The notes below the pieces were generated by a model. The model had not been told where the DNA came from, ran no database searches, and saw only the letters and a program-made list of their open reading frames with translations. A stretch of DNA of 64,000 nucleotides from a virus. Both the position numbers and the translations under genes were made by a program. Location of the stretch: positions 1 to 64,000 of the IMG/VR virus record IMGVR_UViG_3300049855_000474, one strand, 5' to 3'. Shown one piece after another: positions 4,918-52,264 of this stretch (the first letter of the stretch is position 1; each line of letters starts with the position of its first letter).

Positions 4918-5937
4918 ATGGCGGATCAGAATTATTACGACTTACTCGGTGTTGCGAAAACAGCTACAACAGATGATATCAAAAAGAGCTACAGGAAGTT
5001 AGCTTTAAAATATCATCCAGACCACAATCAAGGAGATAAGAGCTCAGAGGAGACTTTCAAGAAGATCTCAGAAGCGTATGCCACCTTGAGCGATGACCGT
5101 AAACGTAATATCTACGATAATGGCGGCGTTCAACATAGGCAACATAGTTATCAGGATTTCATGAACATCAACCTTGAGGAAATTATGAACAATTTCAGGC
5201 AAGGTAGCGCACAAGAAAATCTAGATCTTCAAACCGACGTTGTAATAGAGCTGAAAGATGCTGTCTATGGAACTAAGGTGGAAGTATCTCTAGACTATAA
5301 CAAAAAGTGCCAACCATGCAAAGGTCTTGGTTCTAAAAATGGACACGCCAAGCAATGCAACAAATGCTTCGGTCGAGGACGTGTATCCGTAGCACAAGGT
5401 GGGTGGAATGTTGCAACAGTCTGCCCAAAATGCAAAGGCACCTGTAACGTACCACTAGACCATGACTGCGGACAATGTAATGGTAAAGGTTCTACTCGTG
5501 TACAACGAAAAATCAAGGTCAATATACCAGCAGGTATCGATAATGGTCAGGTTTTGCGTTTACAAGCACAAGGAGCGGCAGCAAACAATAGAACAGGGGA
5601 TTTGTACGTCAGGGTAAGTGTTCAACCAAACCCGGACTTTGAACGCCACTTCTTCAACCTCGTTACTCCAGTAAAGATCCCATTTGCTACAATCCTTACA
5701 GGTGGGGACATCGAAGTCAAGAACATCAAGGGAGAACTTCTCACTGTACAGGTAGAAGCATGTACACAACCAGGAACACTTCTTAAAGTTCCTGGTCAAG
5801 GTGTGCCTAGCCTTGGGGGAGGTTCTGTAGGTGACTTGCTGGTTGTTGTAGGAATTGAGATACCTACGACGGTAACAGAAGAAGTCAAGCAGAAAGCTCT
5901 AGAGCTACAGCAGGCGATTGAGAACGCAAAGGTGTAA
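4918..5937 (+). CDS. dnaJ: DnaJ-type co-chaperone
   Basis: 339 residues from ATG 4918 (GGAG ten bases upstream; a TTG further upstream is less likely). The J domain carries HPD at 33-35, which stimulates the ATPase of DnaK. The Gly-Phe linker is short. The zinc region has four repeats of the CxxCxGxG type, of which the third ends in Cys rather than Gly. The C-terminal substrate-binding beta domains follow ('[15 protein letters not shown]', '[11 protein letters not shown]'). This is a full type I DnaJ, slightly shorter than bacterial versions. No phage DnaK is in the window, so it probably recruits the host Hsp70, perhaps for replication-complex remodelling or folding of abundant virion proteins. 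Confidence 0.95.
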
Positions 5938-5958
5938 GAGAACCTGTAAAGGCTTCTC

Positions 5959-8900
5959 ATGAAGTCGGTACTCAAGCACGAAAAAGCCTTCTGTGAAGGT
6001 TGTCCCCTCAACCGAAACAAAGCCAAGAAAACTCATTACATTCCCACCGAAGTCCATTACGATAGAGTGGGTCCGGAAGGTCATGCTGAGGTTGATATCC
6101 TTGTCGTCGGAGATGCTCCAGGTAAGAGCGAAGACGACAATGGAATGCCCTTCACAGGACCCTCAGGCGAAGAGCTGAAAATCTCCCTGAAGAAGATTGG
6201 TATTGAAGGCTCCTTCGCTTTAGCCAATTCTATCAGGTGTCGTCCAACGGATGACGAAGGCAACAATCGCCCACCCTCCATTGAAGAAATTGCTGCTTGC
6301 GGCAACTACATCAAACAGGACTTAATTCAGCTAAAACCCAAGGTTGTTGTCCTTATGGGCAATACAGCCAAGGATATTCTAGCACCAACCCCAGAATGGC
6401 GGACTAAGGGAATTAGCAAGTTATCAGGTGAAATCTTTGTTACAAATGGCGTTACGTACACTGCCACAGTAAACCCCTCCAGCTTTCTACGCAACAATAA
6501 CTATATGGAACGACAGAGGTTCCATCGCCACATCGGCAACATTGGACGAATTCTTTCAGGTGAACAAGGTGCTTTCTCCAGGAAAGGTGTTTCTACACTT
6601 CTTAGAACAGAGAAAGCAGCAATTGATTTTCTGGACCTACTGGAGAACTTTGAAACTGATTTTGTTTGTGTAGACACGGAGACAGAAAATCTAAACCGTG
6701 TAGCACCAAACAAATTAGCCACTATCCAATTTGCTGTAGACAATGATATCGGTTTCGTCCTTCCTCTAGAACACTGGCAATCTCCCTGGACACCAGAGTT
6801 CTTAGAGTACCTTAGGGAGCGGCTAGCTCGCATCTTTAGTAATCCAGAAATCAAAATAGGCGCCTGGGTAGCTCACGGGTCCAAGTTTGACTACGGAAAG
6901 ATCACCAAGTTCTGCCGTATTATTAAGATAGCTCTCCCCATTATGGACCCCATCTTCATGGAGTACCTCCGAGATGAAAATCAAAGGAGAGGCATGGATG
7001 ACGGTGGAGAAGGTGGACTTGATGGTTCTGGTGGTACCAACTTCGATTTAAAGACCATGGCTAAGGACAAGCTGGGGTTCTACTATTACAATGAAAAAAT
7101 ACTAGAGGTCCGAAAAGACGGTAGTCTGGTAGAAGAACCGTTGTGGAATCCTGATAACTCGGTAAGTGAGTTCACTATTTATGCCGGTATGGACGTTTAT
7201 ATCGGTCGCCGTCTCATCTGCTATATCATCAACGAACTAGGACTAACAGAGCATAAAGAAAAATCAATCAACTTTGCTAAGAAGTGGGGTACCCGAGTTA
7301 CCCATCTTCTAACTAAAATTGAAGCCAATGGCTGCTTTGCTGATAAAGACCAATTGGAATACCTACGCAGTGACGACTCCCCGATCCTGAAACGGATGGA
7401 TGAGATTCCAGGGGAAATCACAAGCTCGCCTGAAGGTAAGAAAGCTAACCAGCTGATTCTATCCAAGGATCCTAGAACCAAGGGAATGAAGCCTCTCTTT
7501 GGCAAAGCACCAATTGTATTTGACATCGACAAGAAAGACCACCGAGTAGCTCTGTTGGTCGATACTTGCAAGCTCGAGCCTTTGGCTTACGGAAAGAAGG
7601 AAGGGGAAGCTAAAAGCAAGTACGCCAAGAAGGGCAAGAATGGAGAAATTGATAAAGGAAACGGGGTTCCTTCGATCAATAAGGCGTTCTTCCAGGAATA
7701 TAAAGACCACCCCTTTGCGGCGCTAGTTCAGGAATACGAAGGACTAAAGAAACTGAAGTCCAGCTACCTGAATAGCGTGATGAGCTTTCTGACTGATGAC
7801 ATTATCTACACAAAGCGTGGTCCAAAGTCAAACGCTGATAATTTGTTCGATGGAAGAATCCACCCAACTTTCTGGGACAGTAAAACTGTAACTGGAAGGT
7901 TCGCTGCTTCTGACCCGAACACCCAACAGCTTCCACGCGCCGAGGGTTTTGCCAAAAGCATGATCAAGTCAATGTATGGCGCGGCTCCTGGTCACGTCAT
8001 GCTGGAGGCTGATTTCGGTCAGGCGGAAATTCGTTGGTGGGCTCAAATAGCGAAGGACCAAGAATTCGCTAACTTGTTCAACGGGATGGTGTCTATATTA
8101 GAGGAATTTGAAAGGAATCCAACACCTGAGTTAGCTATTCGAGTATCGAATGAGTGTGACATTCATAAGCAGGTCAGTGCTGCAATGAATCGAGTACCAA
8201 TTGAGCAAGTATCGAAAGATATGCGCCAAGCAGCCAAGGGACTGTGCGTCGCCCCCGGAACTCTAATCCGGACTCCAGAAGGCTTGATTCCTATCGAGGA
8301 AGTAATAAATAGCTGGAAGGGTTCTGTATTGCTGGAAACGCGCAAAGGCGTAGAAGAGGCAAACAGGACTTTCGAGATTACCGTAAATAGAACCCAGAAA
8401 GTGAAAACAAGTAGGGGTTACACAATTCATGGAAGACCCGAGCATCCTGTATTAGTGTGGAGGAGTTGCAAGCTTCAGTTTGTAGAGTTGCAAAATCTCA
8501 ACTCAGAAGACCGTATTGTAACCAGGCGAAATGCCAAGTTGTGGCCTGAGAAATTGGTCAAGTTGGAGCCTTCGATACTAAAGTCTGGGGAAGAAATCTT
8601 CCCCAAAGAAGTTACACCGGACCTAGCTAGGCTACTGGGGTATATTACAAGTGAGGGAACTACAGGATACGAAAAGTTTATCCGTATTCCTAATACAGAT
8701 GAAAGAGTTATTGCTGACCTCAGAGAACTTCTAACATCTAACTTTGGCAAAGAAGCCTTTGCAGAATGTACAGATGATCGAAGTGCGGATAATTGGAAAA
8801 ATATAACTAAATTTACAATAAATTCAACAGCTGCCCGTTACCTTCGAAAACTAGGAGTAGTGGGTATCGAAGATTCGTACACAAAAGTAGTACCCAAAGC

Positions 8901-10326
8901 TATAATGCGGTCTCCGCGTCACGTAGTAATAGAATACCTTCGCGGATATCTTGCTGGGGATGCTTCTTCCAATTTCCACAGAGTTAAAGCCTGTACCGCC
9001 TCAAAACAATTAGCCAAAGAAATTCAAATCCTTCTATTGGACTTGGGGATTGTAGCCAAGCGTGATGGCAGCTACAGGAAGACCAACAAAGGAGAAGGTT
9101 TTTATTGGGATGTCACAGCAGTGGGTAAGGAGGCTGAACGCTGTTGGGCAATTATCCCACCAATCCGTCCTCTGGATGAAGCCTACGAAAAAGAATACAA
9201 CAACGCACAGCTCGATCACATTTACGGACTCCGAGAGTTAGCTAAGAAGTTTGCTGATTCCAACTATCGAGAAAAAGGAAACAAAGAAAACGGGGGTTAT
9301 TGGAAATACCCAGGTTTCCCTTGGACTCGTGCCGAGACTTGGACACTAGATTTCTGCTACAAGCACAAGGAGAAAATTATCAAAGGCTTCAAAGCCCGAG
9401 ATGAGCAACTTGCTTTAGATTTTGAGGAAATCCTTACGCAGGGTTACTTCCTCGATTCAATCGTTGAAAACGAAGTGATCGATCAAGACAACCAAACCGT
9501 CTACGATTTCACCGTTCCAGGCAGCCATTCCTTCGTGACCAATGGAATAGTAGGATCGAACAGCTTTGGCAGTTTATACGGAATGTCGCCTAAGTCACTT
9601 GCTATGCTTGTTAAATGCTCTGAATTTGAAGCTAAGCAATTGATTCAAACGTTCACTAACAAGTTTGAGCGTGCTGGCGGTTGGTTGGAGTATATCGAGG
9701 ATTTTGCAATGGAGAATGGATATGTTATATCGCCATTCGGACGTGCAAGACATCTCGCACCGCTGATCGAACTGAATGAGGGTGCGGCTCGACGGGTAGC
9801 TAGAAACTCACCAATCCAGGGTGCTGCTTCTGATACGACCGCAATGGGGGCTTGGTTAATTCAGGACTGGATTGAGAGGACCAATAGACCTTACAAGATT
9901 TGGAACGTTGTTCACGACGCTATTTCCATAGAAGTTCCCCTTACCAAGGAGGCTATTATAGAAGTTATGGCAGTTATGAAGAACTACATGACTAAGGAAA
10001 TCAACCCGTTCCTAAAGCAGGAATTTAATATCAATCTTATCGTTCCATTAGTTATAGATTTTAAGGTAGGTCTACGCTGGGGTCATTGTAAGACAGTGGA
10101 TCCACTTACGGATATTGATCAATTCGTAGCTACGCTGCAAGAACAGGACCGACGCCTCCATAACGGGGACAAGTGGTGGCAATTGGCTACCGAGCTAGAG
10201 GTAAAGAAGTTGGAGAAGGATTTAAGCAAGATCGAGAAAGAAAAGAAGGAAAACTGGGAGAAAGAGATCGCAAAACGTGTTAGGATGATTGAAGAGCACA
10301 GAAATTCGCTATTGAAGGCTGGTTGA
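5959..10326 (+). CDS. DNA polymerase I family replicative polymerase with N-terminal UDG-like domain and intein
   Basis: 1455-residue precursor. Residues 1 to about 200 resemble family 4/5 uracil-DNA glycosylases: CxxC at 12-15, 'GDAPGKSEDD' and 'PFTGPSG', and two later cysteines that complete the iron-sulphur pattern. A DEDDy 3'-5' exonuclease follows, with D239 and E241 in 'VDTET' and 'YAGMD' as the third motif. The polymerase A palm has motif A 'EADFGQAEIR' (D685) and motif C 'VVHDAIS' (D1320). Motif B is split after 'RQAAKGL' by an intein (residues 763-1201); splicing restores 'KGLSFGSLYG'. The mature protein would be 1016 residues. UDG-polymerase fusions are known in SPO1-like phages. 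It is followed after one base by a small membrane protein gene. Confidence 0.95.
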   Translation: MKSVLKHEKAFCEGCPLNRNKAKKTHYIPTEVHYDRVGPEGHAEVDILVVGDAPGKSEDDNGMPFTGPSGEELKISLKKIGIEGSFALANSIRCRPTDDEGNNRPPSIEEIAACGNYIKQDLIQLKPKVVVLMGNTAKDILAPTPEWRTKGISKLSGEIFVTNGVTYTATVNPSSFLRNNNYMERQRFHRHIGNIGRILSGEQGAFSRKGVSTLLRTEKAAIDFLDLLENFETDFVCVDTETENLNRVAPNKLATIQFAVDNDIGFVLPLEHWQSPWTPEFLEYLRERLARIFSNPEIKIGAWVAHGSKFDYGKITKFCRIIKIALPIMDPIFMEYLRDENQRRGMDDGGEGGLDGSGGTNFDLKTMAKDKLGFYYYNEKILEVRKDGSLVEEPLWNPDNSVSEFTIYAGMDVYIGRRLICYIINELGLTEHKEKSINFAKKWGTRVTHLLTKIEANGCFADKDQLEYLRSDDSPILKRMDEIPGEITSSPEGKKANQLILSKDPRTKGMKPLFGKAPIVFDIDKKDHRVALLVDTCKLEPLAYGKKEGEAKSKYAKKGKNGEIDKGNGVPSINKAFFQEYKDHPFAALVQEYEGLKKLKSSYLNSVMSFLTDDIIYTKRGPKSNADNLFDGRIHPTFWDSKTVTGRFAASDPNTQQLPRAEGFAKSMIKSMYGAAPGHVMLEADFGQAEIRWWAQIAKDQEFANLFNGMVSILEEFERNPTPELAIRVSNECDIHKQVSAAMNRVPIEQVSKDMRQAAKGLCVAPGTLIRTPEGLIPIEEVINSWKGSVLLETRKGVEEANRTFEITVNRTQKVKTSRGYTIHGRPEHPVLVWRSCKLQFVELQNLNSEDRIVTRRNAKLWPEKLVKLEPSILKSGEEIFPKEVTPDLARLLGYITSEGTTGYEKFIRIPNTDERVIADLRELLTSNFGKEAFAECTDDRSADNWKNITKFTINSTAARYLRKLGVVGIEDSYTKVVPKAIMRSPRHVVIEYLRGYLAGDASSNFHRVKACTASKQLAKEIQILLLDLGIVAKRDGSYRKTNKGEGFYWDVTAVGKEAERCWAIIPPIRPLDEAYEKEYNNAQLDHIYGLRELAKKFADSNYREKGNKENGGYWKYPGFPWTRAETWTLDFCYKHKEKIIKGFKARDEQLALDFEEILTQGYFLDSIVENEVIDQDNQTVYDFTVPGSHSFVTNGIVGSNSFGSLYGMSPKSLAMLVKCSEFEAKQLIQTFTNKFERAGGWLEYIEDFAMENGYVISPFGRARHLAPLIELNEGAARRVARNSPIQGAASDTTAMGAWLIQDWIERTNRPYKIWNVVHDAISIEVPLTKEAIIEVMAVMKNYMTKEINPFLKQEFNINLIVPLVIDFKVGLRWGHCKTVDPLTDIDQFVATLQEQDRRLHNGDKWWQLATELEVKKLEKDLSKIEKEKKENWEKEIAKRVRMIEEHRNSLLKAG
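8245..9561 (+). other. Intein with LAGLIDADG-type homing domain in polymerase motif B
   Basis: 439 residues, beginning with Cys ('CVAPGTLIRT', block A) and ending in Asn, with Ser as the +1 extein residue. Block B is 'GRPEHPVLV', with Arg where Thr is usual before PEH. Two degenerate LAGLIDADG helices are visible, 'LLGYITSEG' and 'LRGYLAGDA', consistent with a homing endonuclease. Block F/G is 'VYDFTVPGSHSFVTNGIVGSN'-like, with Ser in place of the usual penultimate His. The junctions rebuild an intact polymerase motif B, which fixes both ends with good confidence. Confidence 0.92.
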
Positions 10327-10327
10327 T

Positions 10328-10528
10328 ATGGAGAACTTCCTAGAAGTTATTTGGCTTCTATCCATCCTAACTATGGTGTTTGTAGGAGTATCGCTACTCC
10401 TATTTCTATTCACACTAGTAGTAATACTGATATTCCCCGTCGTATTAATAGTTTTCACTGTGCAATATCTCTCAGTGATCTTTCGTGAATATAATAGAAA
10501 GGAAAACCAGGACAATGACAGTAAATAA
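10328..10528 (+). CDS. Small integral membrane protein, 66 aa
   Basis: ATG 10328 lies one base after the polymerase stop. Residues 6-50 form one long or two hydrophobic helices (Val, Leu, Phe, Ile rich), followed by a charged tail 'REYNRKENQDNDSK'. No recognisable family. Could act in membrane anchoring of replication, superinfection exclusion or lysis control; none of these can be chosen from the sequence. Its end overlaps the start of the next gene. Confidence 0.6.
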   Translation: MENFLEVIWLLSILTMVFVGVSLLLFLFTLVVILIFPVVLIVFTVQYLSVIFREYNRKENQDNDSK

Positions 10529-10802
10529 ACTAGTATTACGAGATTTGGATATTTACGCTCTAAGGGCTTCGGAGAAAGATCCCGAGTCAATGGCTCGCTT
10601 TCATCAGGAATGTACTCCAGAACGAATCCTTGCTATCCTGGAGGAATTTAAGGAGATGAAGGAATGGTACGAGGGAGAAGAAGATCTCCGATCCCAAATT
10701 CAAGATCTTCGAGATGACCTTGAAACTGCGGAAGATAAGTGTGGTGATTACCATAGACAGGTTGAGGAGCTACAGGACGAAATAAAGGAGCTGCGAGGAT
10801 GA
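10515..10802 (+). CDS. Hypothetical coiled-coil protein, 95 aa
   Basis: ATG 10515 (with AGGA just upstream) is chosen over an upstream GTG at 10485. The C-terminal half is a long acidic heptad-patterned helix rich in Glu, Asp and Leu, so a coiled coil is likely. It overlaps the membrane protein gene and the deformylase start, indicating an operon. Function unknown. Confidence 0.6.
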   Translation: MTVNKLVLRDLDIYALRASEKDPESMARFHQECTPERILAILEEFKEMKEWYEGEEDLRSQIQDLRDDLETAEDKCGDYHRQVEELQDEIKELRG

Positions 10803-11401
10803 CCCCAGATAAGACTCAAATTTCAGCTAAAGATATGAATGTGCTTATATCCCGTCAGGACCAGAAGGAATACTTTCCTTTGCTTGTATACCCAAACAAG
10901 GGTCTTCGAGTAGAAACCAAGGAAGTAACTGACTTCGGACCAGCTTTCCAAGCTATTATCGATAAGATGACTGCTACGATGTACAGGGCTCAAGGTGTTG
11001 GGTTGGCAGCTCCTCAGGTTGGTATTAATGCTAAAGTGTTCATTTTGGACTGCCCTGACGAAGGAAATAACGGACTTCAGGTGTTTGTTAATCCCGAGAT
11101 TATAACAGCCACTCTTTTCAGTAAAGCTATGGAAGGTTGCCTTTCCTTCCCCGGTGTAGTGGAACAAATTGATAGGGCTTCCAGTATTGTAGGTAAAGCA
11201 CAAGACCGATTTGGAAATCCTTTTACTTTCGCAAGCCTAGCAGAAGCTGATACAGACGTCATAAAGCTTTCCGAAGTGGAAGTGGTTGCTGTGCAACACG
11301 AGATTGAGCACCTGCAAGGTATTTTAATGATTGACAAAGTCAGTCATTTGAAGCAACGTTACATGAAGAAAACAGTACAAAAAGTATTGAAGAGCCTGTA
11401 A
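10799..11401 (+). CDS. def: Peptide deformylase
   Basis: 200 residues with all three deformylase motifs: GVGLAAPQVG at 66-75, EGCLS at 112-116 (metal ligand C114) and QHEIEH at 166-171 (H167, H171, catalytic E168). The enzyme removes N-terminal formyl groups from nascent proteins. Phage copies are known and are often shorter at the C-terminus; this one keeps a short helical tail. Start ATG overlaps the upstream stop by four bases. The N-terminal extension of about 25 residues before the usual start is slightly long. Confidence 0.95.
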   Translation: MTPDKTQISAKDMNVLISRQDQKEYFPLLVYPNKGLRVETKEVTDFGPAFQAIIDKMTATMYRAQGVGLAAPQVGINAKVFILDCPDEGNNGLQVFVNPEIITATLFSKAMEGCLSFPGVVEQIDRASSIVGKAQDRFGNPFTFASLAEADTDVIKLSEVEVVAVQHEIEHLQGILMIDKVSHLKQRYMKKTVQKVLKSL

Positions 11402-11829: not shown

Positions 11830-12564
11830 ATGACAGCCACATTCTCAGATGAAGACTTGCAAGCAGTAGTACTGCAGCTAAAGAGGGCTAATTCGGAACT
11901 TGAGCGCTTCGCTTATGTAGCGTCACATGATTTGAAGGCTCCGCTTAGAGCCATTTCGAACTTAGCGTCTTGGATTAAGGAAGACAGTGACAATAAGTTT
12001 TCTAAGGAATCCGTTGAACATTTCAATATGATGCTCAATAGAGTTTCTAGAATGGAAAAATTGTTGGATGATATTCTAGCCTATGCTAAGGTAGGTAAGA
12101 GAGATAATACTTTCGAGTCGGTCAACCTTGTTGAAATGATTCAAAGCATATTTTATATGCTTCCAAATAAGCGTTTCACGGTCCTAACCGAATCTACAGT
12201 ACCTACTTTTTTTGCTGAAAGGTATCCTCTCGAGCAGGTGCTTCGAAATTTGATTAGTAACTCAATCAAGCACCATCACGCAGGAAAAGGAACTATTACA
12301 GTTAGTATAGAAGAACTACAAAAACATATACAGTTTACAGTTACGGACGATGGTCCTGGAATTCCTAAGGAAAATCAGGCAGAATGCTTCGAGATGTTTC
12401 GAACGCTGAAACCCCGAGATGAGGTTGAAGGGTCCGGAATGGGTCTTGCTTTAGTTAAAAAGATTGTAGAGAACCAAGGTGGGTCAATAGATATTCTACC
12501 CTCTAACAAGGGTTTGAGTATTCGTTTCTTGTGGCCTCGATTCGATCGGTACAGAGAAGAATGA
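11830..12564 (+). CDS. Sensor-less histidine kinase
   Basis: 244 residues. The H box is 'ASHDLKAPLR' with phospho-acceptor H33; the N box is 'LRNLISNSIKHH', followed by G1 'DDGPGIP' and G2 'GSGMGLALV', so the ATPase domain is complete. Only a short coiled N-terminus precedes the HisKA domain: there is no sensor or membrane segment, so it is cytoplasmic and either constitutive or controlled by a partner. The H box most resembles phytochrome-type kinases. No Shine-Dalgarno is seen; TATAAT lies four bases before the ATG. The stop overlaps the start of a receiver protein (ATGA). Phosphotransfer to that protein and to the REC-GGDEF protein is inferred from the arrangement. Confidence 0.93.
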   Translation: MTATFSDEDLQAVVLQLKRANSELERFAYVASHDLKAPLRAISNLASWIKEDSDNKFSKESVEHFNMMLNRVSRMEKLLDDILAYAKVGKRDNTFESVNLVEMIQSIFYMLPNKRFTVLTESTVPTFFAERYPLEQVLRNLISNSIKHHHAGKGTITVSIEELQKHIQFTVTDDGPGIPKENQAECFEMFRTLKPRDEVEGSGMGLALVKKIVENQGGSIDILPSNKGLSIRFLWPRFDRYREE

Positions 12565-12965
12565 GTATTACAATTTTAGTCATTGATGATGATAACGTGG
12601 ATGTGTTAGCCTTACGCAGGTCTTTCAAGAAGCACAAAGTTCTTCGTTATGCCGATCTACAAACGGCTAAAGATGGGCGGCATGCCTTGACTCTCCTTAC
12701 AGGGCAGTGCCCTATCAAACCAACGCTAGTTCTTCTAGACTTAAATATGCCTGGTATGAATGGACTACAATTCCTAGATAATGTCCGGTCTATCCCTTCC
12801 TTGCAATATCTCAGAATACTAGTGTTGACCACGTCTGCTGATGATACCGACATCAAAGCTGCAAACTCCAAATGTATTGTAGGATACGTTACAAAGTCTA
12901 AAGCTGGAAATTATACTGAATTAACCGATCTGCTAAATAATTACTGCAATCTCACGGAGAGTTAA
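12561..12965 (+). CDS. Stand-alone response regulator receiver
   Basis: 134 residues from ATG 12561 (ATGA overlap with the kinase). A CheY-like receiver with acidic pocket 'IDDDN', phospho-acceptor D60 in 'LLDLNMPG', Thr in 'VLTTS' and Lys in 'VTKSK'. There is no output domain. It resembles the small receivers paired with phytochrome-type kinases. It probably serves as a phosphate carrier or sink between the kinase and the diguanylate cyclase encoded one base downstream, or acts by protein contacts. Confidence 0.93.
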   Translation: MSITILVIDDDNVDVLALRRSFKKHKVLRYADLQTAKDGRHALTLLTGQCPIKPTLVLLDLNMPGMNGLQFLDNVRSIPSLQYLRILVLTTSADDTDIKAANSKCIVGYVTKSKAGNYTELTDLLNNYCNLTES

Positions 12966-12966
12966 G

Positions 12967-13899
12967 TTGCACAAACCCTGGAATATTTTCTTGCTGGAGG
13001 ATGATGAAGCGGATAAGCTGCTTGTGCAGGTAACGCTAAAGCATTCAGGGGTGCCGTTTACGTTGACCCACGCCAAAACTATGGACGAGGCTAGGAGTAT
13101 TTTAGATTCTAGTGGTGCTCTGTTTGACTGTGCTCTACTAGATAGGTCGGTTCCTGGGGGTTGTGGATTAGACTTAGTTAGCCATAATAAACTACAGTCA
13201 GTACCTTGTATCATGCTAACTGGAAATCAGGACGAGACAGTAGCCTTACAAGCACTACAGCGGGGTCTTGAAGATTATATTATGAAGGGTGACATCACCA
13301 GGCACACTCTGGTGCGAGCTATCCGGTACGCTATGGAACGTAATAGTATCAAATGCGCTTTATCTGAAGCGAAAAAGAAACTAGAAGAATTGGTGAAAAC
13401 AGATCACCTGACTGGTCTTTTGAATCGCCGGGGTTTGGAAGAACTGCTTCAACGGCTGCTACAACGAAACTCTAACTTTGAAGAGAATCACGGCGTAATA
13501 CTCATCGATATTGACAACTTCAAGGCTATCAATGATACCTTAGGGTATGATGCTGGAGATGAGGCACTACGATTTGTAGCTACCAAGCTCAGGCTGTGTT
13601 CCCGTCCTTTAGATCATGTAGCTCGTATTGGTGGTGACGAGTTTATCATACTCCTAACAAATGTTGAGATGGAACAATGCGCTGCTATCTCAGAACGAAT
13701 TCGGACTACTTTTGAGGAAACACTACTCAATATAAGGGGATCCGAACTGAACGTAACGGTGAGTATGGGGGTATCGGCATTAAACAATGCCTCTACAGTA
13801 GAGGAACTGTTCAAAGCAACCCAAGCCGCACTTCACTGTAGCAAAAAACAAGGTAAAAACGCTGTGTGTATGAATTCCACAATACCACCAAGCAGGTAG
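12967..13899 (+). CDS. REC-GGDEF diguanylate cyclase
   Basis: 310 residues, TTG start at 12967 one base after the receiver stop and with GGAG upstream. Residues 1-125 are a receiver (D59 in 'LLDRSVPGG', Lys in 'IMKGDI'). A short coiled linker leads to a GGDEF domain with 'LTGLLNRRG', 'DIDNFKAIND' and the signature GGDEF at 222-226. RPLD at 213-216, five residues before the signature, matches the inhibitory I-site. All residues needed to make cyclic di-GMP from two GTP appear present, with product inhibition. In the host this could lock cells in a sessile or non-motile state; that consequence is inference. Confidence 0.95.
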   Translation: MHKPWNIFLLEDDEADKLLVQVTLKHSGVPFTLTHAKTMDEARSILDSSGALFDCALLDRSVPGGCGLDLVSHNKLQSVPCIMLTGNQDETVALQALQRGLEDYIMKGDITRHTLVRAIRYAMERNSIKCALSEAKKKLEELVKTDHLTGLLNRRGLEELLQRLLQRNSNFEENHGVILIDIDNFKAINDTLGYDAGDEALRFVATKLRLCSRPLDHVARIGGDEFIILLTNVEMEQCAAISERIRTTFEETLLNIRGSELNVTVSMGVSALNNASTVEELFKATQAALHCSKKQGKNAVCMNSTIPPSR

Positions 13900-13902
13900 T
13901 TT

Positions 13903-14364
13903 ATGATTGGTCTATTGAAGAAGTTAGGGTCGGTAGCTTGGAATTCCGTAATAGCGGTAGTATCGAATAAAACAAAGTTCCCGGCTGTCAATGAGCGAGA
14001 TCTTCAGGACTTTGCCAGCTATGTGCAGAAAAACACGGCTACTAAAGCACACTACCAAGTTTCTGGAAAGTTTATGGAGTACGGCACCACGCCTAGACGA
14101 TTTCTTTTGACAGTTGAAGCAAACAACACTATACTAATGTCTTTCTTCTTATGTGGTGAGCCTACATTCTCAGCAGTGACTTTTGCGTTAGCAAGAGATT
14201 TCTTTGGAAAGGAACGCACATTTCTATCAAGCTCTTTTCTCTATAGAGAGGATAGTACTGTTTGTTTAAACTGGCATACGGATTTTCCTGTTGTATACTT
14301 AGAGTACATCAATAAGATTTTACGTAGCTCTCGCAGCGTAAAGAGTTCAACAGAACTCAACTAG
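13903..14364 (+). CDS. Hypothetical protein, 153 aa
   Basis: ATG 13903 lies three bases after the diguanylate cyclase stop, so it is probably co-transcribed with the signalling cassette. N-terminal amphipathic or weakly hydrophobic stretch, then an alpha/beta body ('RRFLLTVEANNTILMSFFLCGEP'-like region) and a Ser/Arg-rich tail. No family recognised; a partner role in the signalling cassette is possible but unsupported. Confidence 0.6.
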   Translation: MIGLLKKLGSVAWNSVIAVVSNKTKFPAVNERDLQDFASYVQKNTATKAHYQVSGKFMEYGTTPRRFLLTVEANNTILMSFFLCGEPTFSAVTFALARDFFGKERTFLSSSFLYREDSTVCLNWHTDFPVVYLEYINKILRSSRSVKSSTELN

Positions 14365-14406
14365 TGACGACTCAGGTTAGTAACAATGAAACTGAAAGGT
14401 AATAAA

Positions 14407-14886
14407 ATGAGCGACAGAGAAATTAGTGACCGAATTCTATTCCTGTACCTTCGGGATCCCAAGGATCCCAAGCACGTGGCGACTGTTGCCAGGTTCAAGC
14501 AGGGCAATGTCCTGACTTTTGCCTGGGCAATCAACAAGGTGACCACGCTTCAGAGTGGTCAGAAGTTTAGCAACTTTGAAGACTCCTACAAAAGCAAGAC
14601 GGTCCATGACGTGTTCAATAAGGCACGTGGGCGTACGATTGCTGAGGGTCGTCTGGGCTGCCACAAGTCGTCTATCACCATTGAGCTTTACGAGGATGAG
14701 CGTCCGCTTAAAGCTATGCTGGAAACTCTCGCTGGGAACTCCGAGGTAGATGGTGTGGTTATCCCTTCCTTCCTGTCACGCTGGGCTCGCGATAACTTGC
14801 TCGGCATCTACGCGGAGGAGGCAAGGCAGCTCATTGCTGCTCAGATTGAAATAGAAAAGTCTCAAGTCTCTGACGTTAGCCTTTGA
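14407..14886 (+). CDS. Hypothetical protein, 159 aa
   Basis: ATG 14407 behind GAAAGG is preferred to ATG 14386. Codon use is visibly more GC-rich than in neighbouring genes (many GTC, CGT, GGC), as also seen at 55562 and 60130-61863, suggesting high expression or different origin. Soluble, helical, charged; no motif recognised. The stop overlaps the next start (TGATG). Confidence 0.6.
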   Translation: MSDREISDRILFLYLRDPKDPKHVATVARFKQGNVLTFAWAINKVTTLQSGQKFSNFEDSYKSKTVHDVFNKARGRTIAEGRLGCHKSSITIELYEDERPLKAMLETLAGNSEVDGVVIPSFLSRWARDNLLGIYAEEARQLIAAQIEIEKSQVSDVSL

Positions 14887-17098: not shown

Positions 17099-17645
17099 TA
17101 ACTGTACCGTATCCGATTCCCCAGTAAAAGTTAGTAAGGCAGTGTCCTACACCTTTCATTTTAAACCATATGGATGGGCAATTTACACAGTTAACGAAAC
17201 TACGGGGGAATTTCATATAACTAGTGATTGGGGAAGTTTTTCCCACCGTTGGGATCCCAAGAATCTAGGTGAGAAAACTTTTCAACAGTTTCTGATTAAG
17301 GCAGAACCTTCTTATATCTGTAGAAAGTTTGCTGCCGCAAATAAAGAGCTAAATGAAGTAGTAGACGAAGAAGAGACGCTAAAAGCTATTAAGACACGGA
17401 TTCTAGAAGATCGTAGAAGTCGATTTATACCTTCCAAGGAAGAAGCAGAGTTGCTTCTTAGTTTGGCTGAAGAGTGGGCTGATGCCGATTTCTCGGAAGC
17501 TGTAATACCTTCCGAATTTTTCGATTACTCTTATGAAGACTTTCTACATACTAAGGAATCTTACACAGCGAAAGTAGTTACTACGCTTCTACTCCCCGCT
17601 TTCCAGAGTTATTTAAAAGAAAGCAAAGTACCAAACCATGATTAA
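17091..17645 (+). CDS. Hypothetical protein, 184 aa
   Basis: Start ATG lies within the end of the preceding tiny ORF. The N-terminal part is aromatic and beta-type ('YTFHFKPYGWAIYTVN'), the C-terminal two thirds acidic and helical. The C-terminus runs eight bases into tnpB and looks complete, so the TnpB gene has not obviously truncated it. Function unknown. Confidence 0.6.
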   Translation: MDNNCTVSDSPVKVSKAVSYTFHFKPYGWAIYTVNETTGEFHITSDWGSFSHRWDPKNLGEKTFQQFLIKAEPSYICRKFAAANKELNEVVDEEETLKAIKTRILEDRRSRFIPSKEEAELLLSLAEEWADADFSEAVIPSEFFDYSYEDFLHTKESYTAKVVTTLLLPAFQSYLKESKVPNHD

Positions 17646-18831
17646 CCGAGCCCACAAAATCGAGTTAGACCCCACTGTTGCGCAGGCGATATACTTCGCT
17701 AAAGCGTGTGGGGTCGCTCGTTTTACTTACAACTGGGCTCTAGTGGAATGGAAGAAGCAATACCAGGAAGGTAGTAAGCATAAAGAGTTTGCTATCAATA
17801 AGCAACTAAACTCAATTAAATCAATTGAGTTTCCTTGGATGTATGAAGTAACTAAGCGGGCTCCACAACAGGCAGTTAAGAACTTAGGCTCAGCGTACAA
17901 GCGTTTCTTAAAGAAGCAAGGTAAATATCCTCGATTTAAGAAGAAGGGTGTTCATGATAGCTTCAGAGCCGATAACGGACCTGTAGATAAATATAGTCAT
18001 GCTGTCAAGATCATCGGAAAAGAAGTGATTTTACCTCGTGTAGGTAAAGTAAGAATGAAACAAACACTTAGATTTAACAACGGAAGGATAATTTCAGTTA
18101 CTGTTTCTAGGGAAGCGCATAAATGGTTTGCTAGTATTTTATTAGAGATCGAACACACTAAACCAATCCGTGAGAACCAAGCGGTGGTTGGGGTGGATCT
18201 TGGCATCAAAAGTCTAGCAGTCCTTAGTGACGGAACAGTATTTGAAAATCCAAAAGCATTAAGGAGCAACTTAAAGAAACTAAAACGACTTTCTCGGTCA
18301 CTGTCTAGAAAGCAGAAAGGTTCTGCTAACAGAAAGAAAGCTCGTATGAAATTAGCTCGATTACATTATCGGATAAGCTGTATTAGAAAAGACGCCCTCC
18401 ATAAGGTAACCACGTTCTTGACTAAGAAGTTCACTTTAATTGGGGTTGAGGATCTCAATGTTAGTGGGATGGTTAGGAATAGGAAACTCGCCAGAGCCCT
18501 TAGTGATGTTGGTTTTGGTGAGTTTAGAAGGCAGTTGACTTACAAATCAGAACTTTACAGCTCTAATTTGTTTGTGGCTGACAGATGGTTTCCTAGTTCA
18601 AAGACATGTTCTCAATGTGGACTTGTAAAAGAGACACTGGAGCTATCAGAACGATCCTGGTGTTGCCTTGCGTGTAATACGATACACGATCGAGATGTAA
18701 ATGCAGCTATTAATTTAAAGATGTTGGCGGAGAGTTCCTCCGTGTCAGTCTGTGGAGCGGATGTCAGCCTCGGTCTCGCGACCGAGCAGACCGTGATGAA
18801 GCAGGAACCAGGTAATACCTATGTTGACTAG
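17638..18831 (+). CDS. tnpB: TnpB-type RNA-guided nuclease (IS200/IS605 OrfB family)
   Basis: 397 residues. The RuvC-like triad is intact: D187 in 'VGVDLGIKSL', E271 in 'GVEDLNV' and D353 in 'HDRDVNAA'. The zinc finger is CxxC at 324-327 and CxxC at 343-346. The N-terminal wedge and a basic helical region (205-245) are present, so the length is normal. Family members are guided by an RNA transcribed from the gene's 3' end. There is no TnpA transposase and no room for a left end, since the ATG overlaps the upstream gene by eight bases; it appears fixed within the early gene string. Function in the phage (homing, competition with other phages) is inferred. Confidence 0.93.
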   Translation: MINRAHKIELDPTVAQAIYFAKACGVARFTYNWALVEWKKQYQEGSKHKEFAINKQLNSIKSIEFPWMYEVTKRAPQQAVKNLGSAYKRFLKKQGKYPRFKKKGVHDSFRADNGPVDKYSHAVKIIGKEVILPRVGKVRMKQTLRFNNGRIISVTVSREAHKWFASILLEIEHTKPIRENQAVVGVDLGIKSLAVLSDGTVFENPKALRSNLKKLKRLSRSLSRKQKGSANRKKARMKLARLHYRISCIRKDALHKVTTFLTKKFTLIGVEDLNVSGMVRNRKLARALSDVGFGEFRRQLTYKSELYSSNLFVADRWFPSSKTCSQCGLVKETLELSERSWCCLACNTIHDRDVNAAINLKMLAESSSVSVCGADVSLGLATEQTVMKQEPGNTYVD

Positions 18832-51952: not shown

Positions 51953-52264
51953 TCACAATGATAAAGATTTCTTCCACGAACGCAATTTTGCATTTAAGTT
52001 ATCTCGACCCTGAGGATTGGCACTATGAACATGCCAATCCGGTGGTCCTTCCTCATAATAGTTTTCGGAAAGCCAGTTGACAAAAGACATAACATCAACA
52101 GTGTTACCGGCTGAATCCAGACCGAGGTCATGGTCCAAAGACATAAAAGAAGGAAGTCCAAGTTCTAGGACAATAGCCTTGGCGTCTTCGAATGTTCGTG
52201 CTAACACATAGCTATCGTCCGGTGGAGTACGTTCATCATCTAGATACAAGATGTAACCAGTCAT
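51953..52264 (-). CDS. Cyclic-phosphate processing receiver (cREC) domain protein
   Basis: 103 residues. 'LYLDDERTPPD' at the N-terminus, 'SLDHDLGLDSAGNT' in the middle and 'WHVHSANPQGRDNL' near the end are the signature of cREC domains, a receiver-like fold predicted to process cyclic phosphates at RNA ends. First gene of the minus-strand operon; predicted leaderless promoter. May act with tRNA or RNA repair, in keeping with the downstream tRNAs. Confidence 0.85.
   Translation of the reverse strand: MTGYILYLDDERTPPDDSYVLARTFEDAKAIVLELGLPSFMSLDHDLGLDSAGNTVDVMSFVNWLSENYYEEGPPDWHVHSANPQGRDNLNAKLRSWKKSLSL

Follow-up and report, generated by a model that had tools for sequence, protein, structure and literature searches.

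Operons in which genes for a histidine kinase (HK), a receiver and a REC-GGDEF(-EAL) protein follow each other are known from bacteria, for example from Vibrio rotiferianus (pAM7), V. alginolyticus, Pseudoalteromonas NC201 and Shewanella hafniensis/carassii. In these operons the kinase has an N-terminal input region such as CHASE or PAS, and the cyclase in most cases extends into an EAL domain. PleD, WspR and DgcR, all three encoded on chromosomes, likewise consist of REC, a helix and GGDEF, with an I-site and a phospho-accepting aspartate (PleD has two receiver domains), and are activated by phosphorylation-induced dimerisation. In the Legionella pair Lpl0330/Lpl0329 a histidine kinase reportedly controls a REC-GGDEF protein; this pair, which we liken to the phage genes by description and not by sequence, is cellular and is said to have a bifunctional GGDEF-EAL output. 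From phages, lone GGDEF proteins have been described in Bacillus phage SP-15, Bacillus phage G (gp350) and an uncultured member of the Caudovirales (AdrA-like). Unlike the genes described here, that of SP-15 has neither a kinase nor a receiver gene as a neighbour.

The window analysed in this study, a stretch of 64,000 bases, belongs to a virus record of 153,375 bases (IMGVR_UViG_3300049855_000474). It contains a three-gene cassette which is a real, conserved and phage-borne variant of the bacterial signalling operon and whose function is predicted. Order, orientation and catalytic motifs are those of the bacterial operons named above, but the phage HK lacks any N-terminal input region and the phage cyclase lacks EAL. 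The original prediction had considered the three-gene set to be undescribed. As far as phages are concerned we found no report of an HK-receiver-diguanylate cyclase set in literature searches that covered subscription journals and preprints thinly; the gene order itself, however, is common on bacterial chromosomes and plasmids. Of interest are the phage as the carrier, the loss of sensor and phosphodiesterase, which is common to two phages, and the prediction, open to test, that host c-di-GMP is set by the phage.

The cassette and its products

The genes and sites of the cassette are as follows.

11830..12564, + strand: histidine kinase, 244 aa, ATG start; short signalling helix, HisKA (24-88) and HATPase_c (133-236)
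11926..11928, + strand: phospho-accepting H33 of the HK, in SHDLKAPLR; invariant in HK alignments
12561..12965, + strand: lone receiver of the Rcp1/phytochrome response-regulator type, 134 aa, ATG start, Pfam Response_reg
12738..12740, + strand: phospho-accepting D60 of the lone receiver, motif LLDLNMP; invariant in receiver alignments
12967..13899, + strand: REC-GGDEF response-regulator diguanylate cyclase, 310 aa; REC 7-119, helix 112-143, GGDEF 144-298
13141..13143, + strand: phospho-accepting D59 in the REC domain of REC-GGDEF, motif LLDRSVP; invariant in the alignment
13603..13614, + strand: RxxD primary inhibitory site, R213-D216 (RPLD), exactly five residues upstream of GGDEF
13630..13644, + strand: GGDEF active-site motif, residues 222-226, by motif position
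13903..14886, + strand: two phage genes downstream of the cassette, function unassigned; not claimed for the circuit

All Pfam matches exceeded the curated cut-offs: HisKA and HATPase_c in the first protein, Response_reg in the second, and Response_reg and GGDEF (E 6e-42) in the third. The open reading frames, domains and residues at 11830-13899 were as originally predicted, and the positions given for H33, D60, D59, GGDEF and the RxxD site at its canonical distance were all exact. The genes had also been described as lying head to tail with overlaps of a few bases. This is true of HK and receiver, which share 4 bases (ATGA) with the receiver ATG inside the overlap; an overlap of 4 bases is also present in Vibrio. 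The receiver stop and REC-GGDEF, in contrast, are separated by 1 base, and the latter gene starts with TTG behind a good ribosome-binding site, GGAGAG. Two genes upstream of the cassette lies a gene for peptide deformylase (10799-11401); in the second phage no such gene was observed next to the cassette.

Besides the H-box histidine the HK possesses the N (140-148), G1 (173-179) and G2 (201-209) boxes that characterise HisKA/HATPase_c kinases. Pfam detected no sensory input domain, and just 23 residues precede HisKA. Such a domain is optional for a histidine kinase, although it is required for the name 'sensor kinase'. The AlphaFold model (pLDDT 80) begins with a helix of 46 residues. PDB relatives of the HK were 8f71 and bacteriophytochromes. 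The lone receiver was related to 6xvu, RcpA (1k68) and Rcp1 (1i3c). Lone receiver and HK core group with receivers of the Rcp1/RcpA phytochrome type and with the kinase cores of bacteriophytochromes, whose photosensory module is missing from the phage HK. The residues that define a receiver (acidic pair, phospho-accepting aspartate, T/S and K) are present in the lone receiver as D10/D11, D60, T90 and K112 and in the REC domain of REC-GGDEF as D12/D13, D59, T85 and K107.

REC-GGDEF combines the GG[D/E]EF motif, the metal- and guanine-contacting residues and the GGDEF fold of diguanylate cyclases. Its AlphaFold model (pLDDT 90.7) comprises REC, a long helix (112-143) and the GGDEF domain, and the best Foldseek matches were DgcR (6zxb), WspR (3bre) and PleD (2v0n). 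These three are also the best matches by sequence, with 27-28% identity. The residues for metal and substrate (D181, N189 and D198) match their PleD counterparts and are invariant in the GGDEF alignment with bacterial homologues, and the RPLD of the phage is aligned with RAID of PleD. D198 corresponds to D344 of PleD, a residue typical of GTP/GTP-specific cyclases. In Hypr GGDEF enzymes, which make cGAMP, a serine stands in place of this guanine-contacting aspartate. Because the hallmark serine is absent from the phage cyclase, c-di-GMP and not cGAMP is the expected product.

Carrier phage, second phage and bacterial relatives

That the cassette is carried by a genuine phage is borne out by genes for a major head protein and a terminase large subunit in the same record, the relatives of the terminase being those of Vibrio phage GR7B, Phage NCTB and Pseudomonas putida phages. 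Other products of the record are an intein-split PolA, RecA, a PhoH-like protein, a sigma-70 region 2 protein and a tubulin/TubZ-like GTPase. Scans for a tyrosine integrase were negative in this contig and in the second phage; for the window phage this is compatible with a lytic life style but is no proof of it.

PolA (window 5959-10326) carries an N-terminal domain of the uracil-DNA-glycosylase type and an intein with a LAGLIDADG homing endonuclease; an intein end is present in polA of the second phage too. The product of L003:9379-10650 (- strand) is a Tubulin/FtsZ-family GTPase with a TubZ-like C-terminal domain and is possibly a phage cytoskeletal protein. A cREC gene (cyclic-phosphate processing receiver, PF20274) is located at 51953-52264 (- strand) of the window, and this family is associated with counter-defence by jumbo phages that involves NAD/ADP-ribose (PMC7824862). 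TnpB/OrfB-like ORFs (zinc ribbon, RuvC type) are common to both phages (window 17638-18831; L017:1818-2852 and L017:4605-5639), and one of those in the second phage sits immediately upstream of the cassette.

The cassette is conserved in one further, diverged phage, IMGVR_UViG_3300049847_000494 (locus L017), whose terminase is 69% identical to that of the window phage. HK, receiver and REC-GGDEF are in identical order there and share 61%, 59% and 52% identity with their counterparts, a similarity far above chance. The HK is again sensor-less and the cyclase again lacks EAL, while all active-site residues are kept and the I-site is present as RPFD. Downstream of the cassette the second phage likewise has counterparts of the two genes that come next in the window (L017:7984-8448 and L017:8461-8871; 32% and 36% identity, respectively), neither of which had a match in Pfam or PHROG. 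In the codon-position comparison these two neighbours were a mere 27-36% identical. The cassettes of the phage pair differ at 64% of third but 21-25% of second codon positions; these differences were used in place of dN/dS, which is precluded by saturation of dS (dN was 0.34-0.43). If active, the cassette would be one kept under selection in both phages.

When the concatenated set was compared with plasmids, matching gene order was found in V. alginolyticus, V. rotiferianus and Pseudoalteromonas, and a scan of GTDB genomes revealed operons of this kind in Shewanella, Alteromonadaceae, Azospirillum, Chloroflexota and others. For the bacterial operons named at the outset mean identity was 35-39% over 91-93% of the concatenated set. 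In order, orientation and homology of the proteins the phage set conforms to the bacterial HK-REC-REC-GGDEF operon. In phylogenetic trees the phage pair was monophyletic for HK, receiver and GGDEF (support 100, 100 and 98, respectively). The HK pair fell inside a nearly all-proteobacterial group of 20 rows with a support of 92; in the receiver and GGDEF trees the pair was placed among members of bacterial cassettes, with weak support for the exact neighbours. This monophyly fits a single event, and the simplest reading is that the three genes were acquired together, once, from a proteobacterium.

Proposed circuit and alternative explanations

The original prediction spoke of a complete phosphorelay ending in a diguanylate cyclase. 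The gene set from HK to cyclase is indeed complete, with catalytic and inhibitory motifs intact in both phages, but the term phosphorelay is not appropriate. A multi-step relay has an HPt domain between two receivers, and no match to HPt (PF01627) was obtained in either phage contig, which may be incomplete. The absence of HPt points instead to one kinase serving two receivers in parallel. EAL and PilZ domains were likewise missing from domain scans of both phages, which implies that c-di-GMP would be written by the phage and read by receptors of the host. We consider it likely that the cassette is a phage-borne branched two-component system which raises host c-di-GMP during infection.

Kinase, phosphotransfer and cyclase activities are assigned here from the protein families, and it is the gene order that suggests specificity of the HK for the two receivers. 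The dimeric, sensor-less HK would autophosphorylate on H33 without an external signal. In the simplest case it would be constitutive and the timing of its expression would act as the switch; alternatively, a partner from phage or host might gate it through the short N-terminal helix. The HK would phosphorylate both receivers in parallel, the lone one on D60 and REC-GGDEF on D59. Once phosphorylated, REC-GGDEF may dimerise more readily via helix 112-143, joining two GGDEF active sites that would convert 2 GTP to c-di-GMP, with the RxxD site limiting output through product inhibition. The lone receiver might compete for phosphate as a sink or timer, or it might serve as an adaptor that acts on a target in the host. 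Any effect on the host is speculative, including the control of motility, biofilm or anti-phage cyclic-nucleotide responses put forward in the original prediction; acting via the host's own receptors, c-di-GMP would probably shift motility, envelope or metabolism toward phage production. If the circuit is active, the phage possesses every step from histidine kinase to second messenger and not one borrowed enzyme, and it would become possible to test directly whether and why phages set host c-di-GMP during infection.

It might be thought that kinase and lone receiver chiefly disturb host two-component signalling by cross-phosphorylation or sequestration, c-di-GMP being secondary. A kinase with no sensor would suit such a role, HK-receiver modules without GGDEF recur in other large phage contigs, and there is a precedent in the phage protein PIT4, which affects several host two-component systems (PMC10714779). 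Nevertheless we regard this explanation as unlikely, because both phages have kept REC-GGDEF, complete with active site and I-site. There is also little to recommend the idea that a bacterial two-component operon is passively carried or decaying, with the missing sensor as the first sign of decay. The module is widespread among bacteria, and the CHASE, PAS or membrane input found in most bacterial homologues is indeed lacking from the phage HK. However, the sensor is missing in an identical manner from both phages, and the second phage keeps the cassette, with all catalytic residues and the I-site, at a divergence beyond synonymous saturation, which argues against decay. Moreover, GC and GC3 of HK (0.405/0.376), receiver (0.414/0.393) and cyclase (0.445/0.412) fit the phage mean (0.448/0.423). 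Misassembled or contaminating host sequence can be dismissed: the gene order is typical of bacterial chromosomes and many GGDEF/HK matches in phage collections fall in host-like records, but phage genes flank the cassette on both sides and, decisively, an independent phage contig has the cassette together with matching downstream genes.

The branched circuit proposed above can be extended, tentatively, to a group of large phages in which a sensor-less, permanently active kinase might drive host c-di-GMP as a write-only signal while the lone receiver hijacks host signalling partners, so that the phage sets the sessile or motile state of its host. We think this somewhat doubtful; as an example of its effect, cells might be held slow, pseudolysogenic or superinfection-resistant.

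Kinase and receiver genes in other viral contigs

Among the best 80 GGDEF loci of viral contigs, the second phage alone had HK and receiver genes beside a REC-GGDEF gene, and 74 of the 80 had neither nearby. A search of viral contigs by HK alignment gave 11 loci. In large viral contigs (64-548 kb) an HK with PAS or CHASE3 was found near or beside one or two receivers, Rcp1-like or other (loci L019, L020, L023, L024, L025, L026 and L027, around positions 5000-10600 of each). Several contigs of 142-548 kb combine such an HK with Rcp1-like receivers, in some cases together with one more REC protein, and have no GGDEF. The cassette points to a wider set of kinase-receiver modules, which seem to be more widespread in large phages than single cases suggest. 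Matches to GGDEF and HK in phage collections were not counted, as they lie in 'phage' records that lack annotation and for the most part resemble DNA of the host. One example is 'Pseudomonas phage Y11', which is unverified and GC-rich and in which the match adjoins chromosome-like genes.

On a 116-kb viral contig, the GGDEF protein of L124:4758-5612 shares 39% identity with the cyclase of the window; its N-terminal part resembles a receiver minus the phospho-accepting aspartate, and there is no kinase nearby. L025 and L026 have a third gene, whose product consists of REC and an unrecognised domain of about 180 aa.
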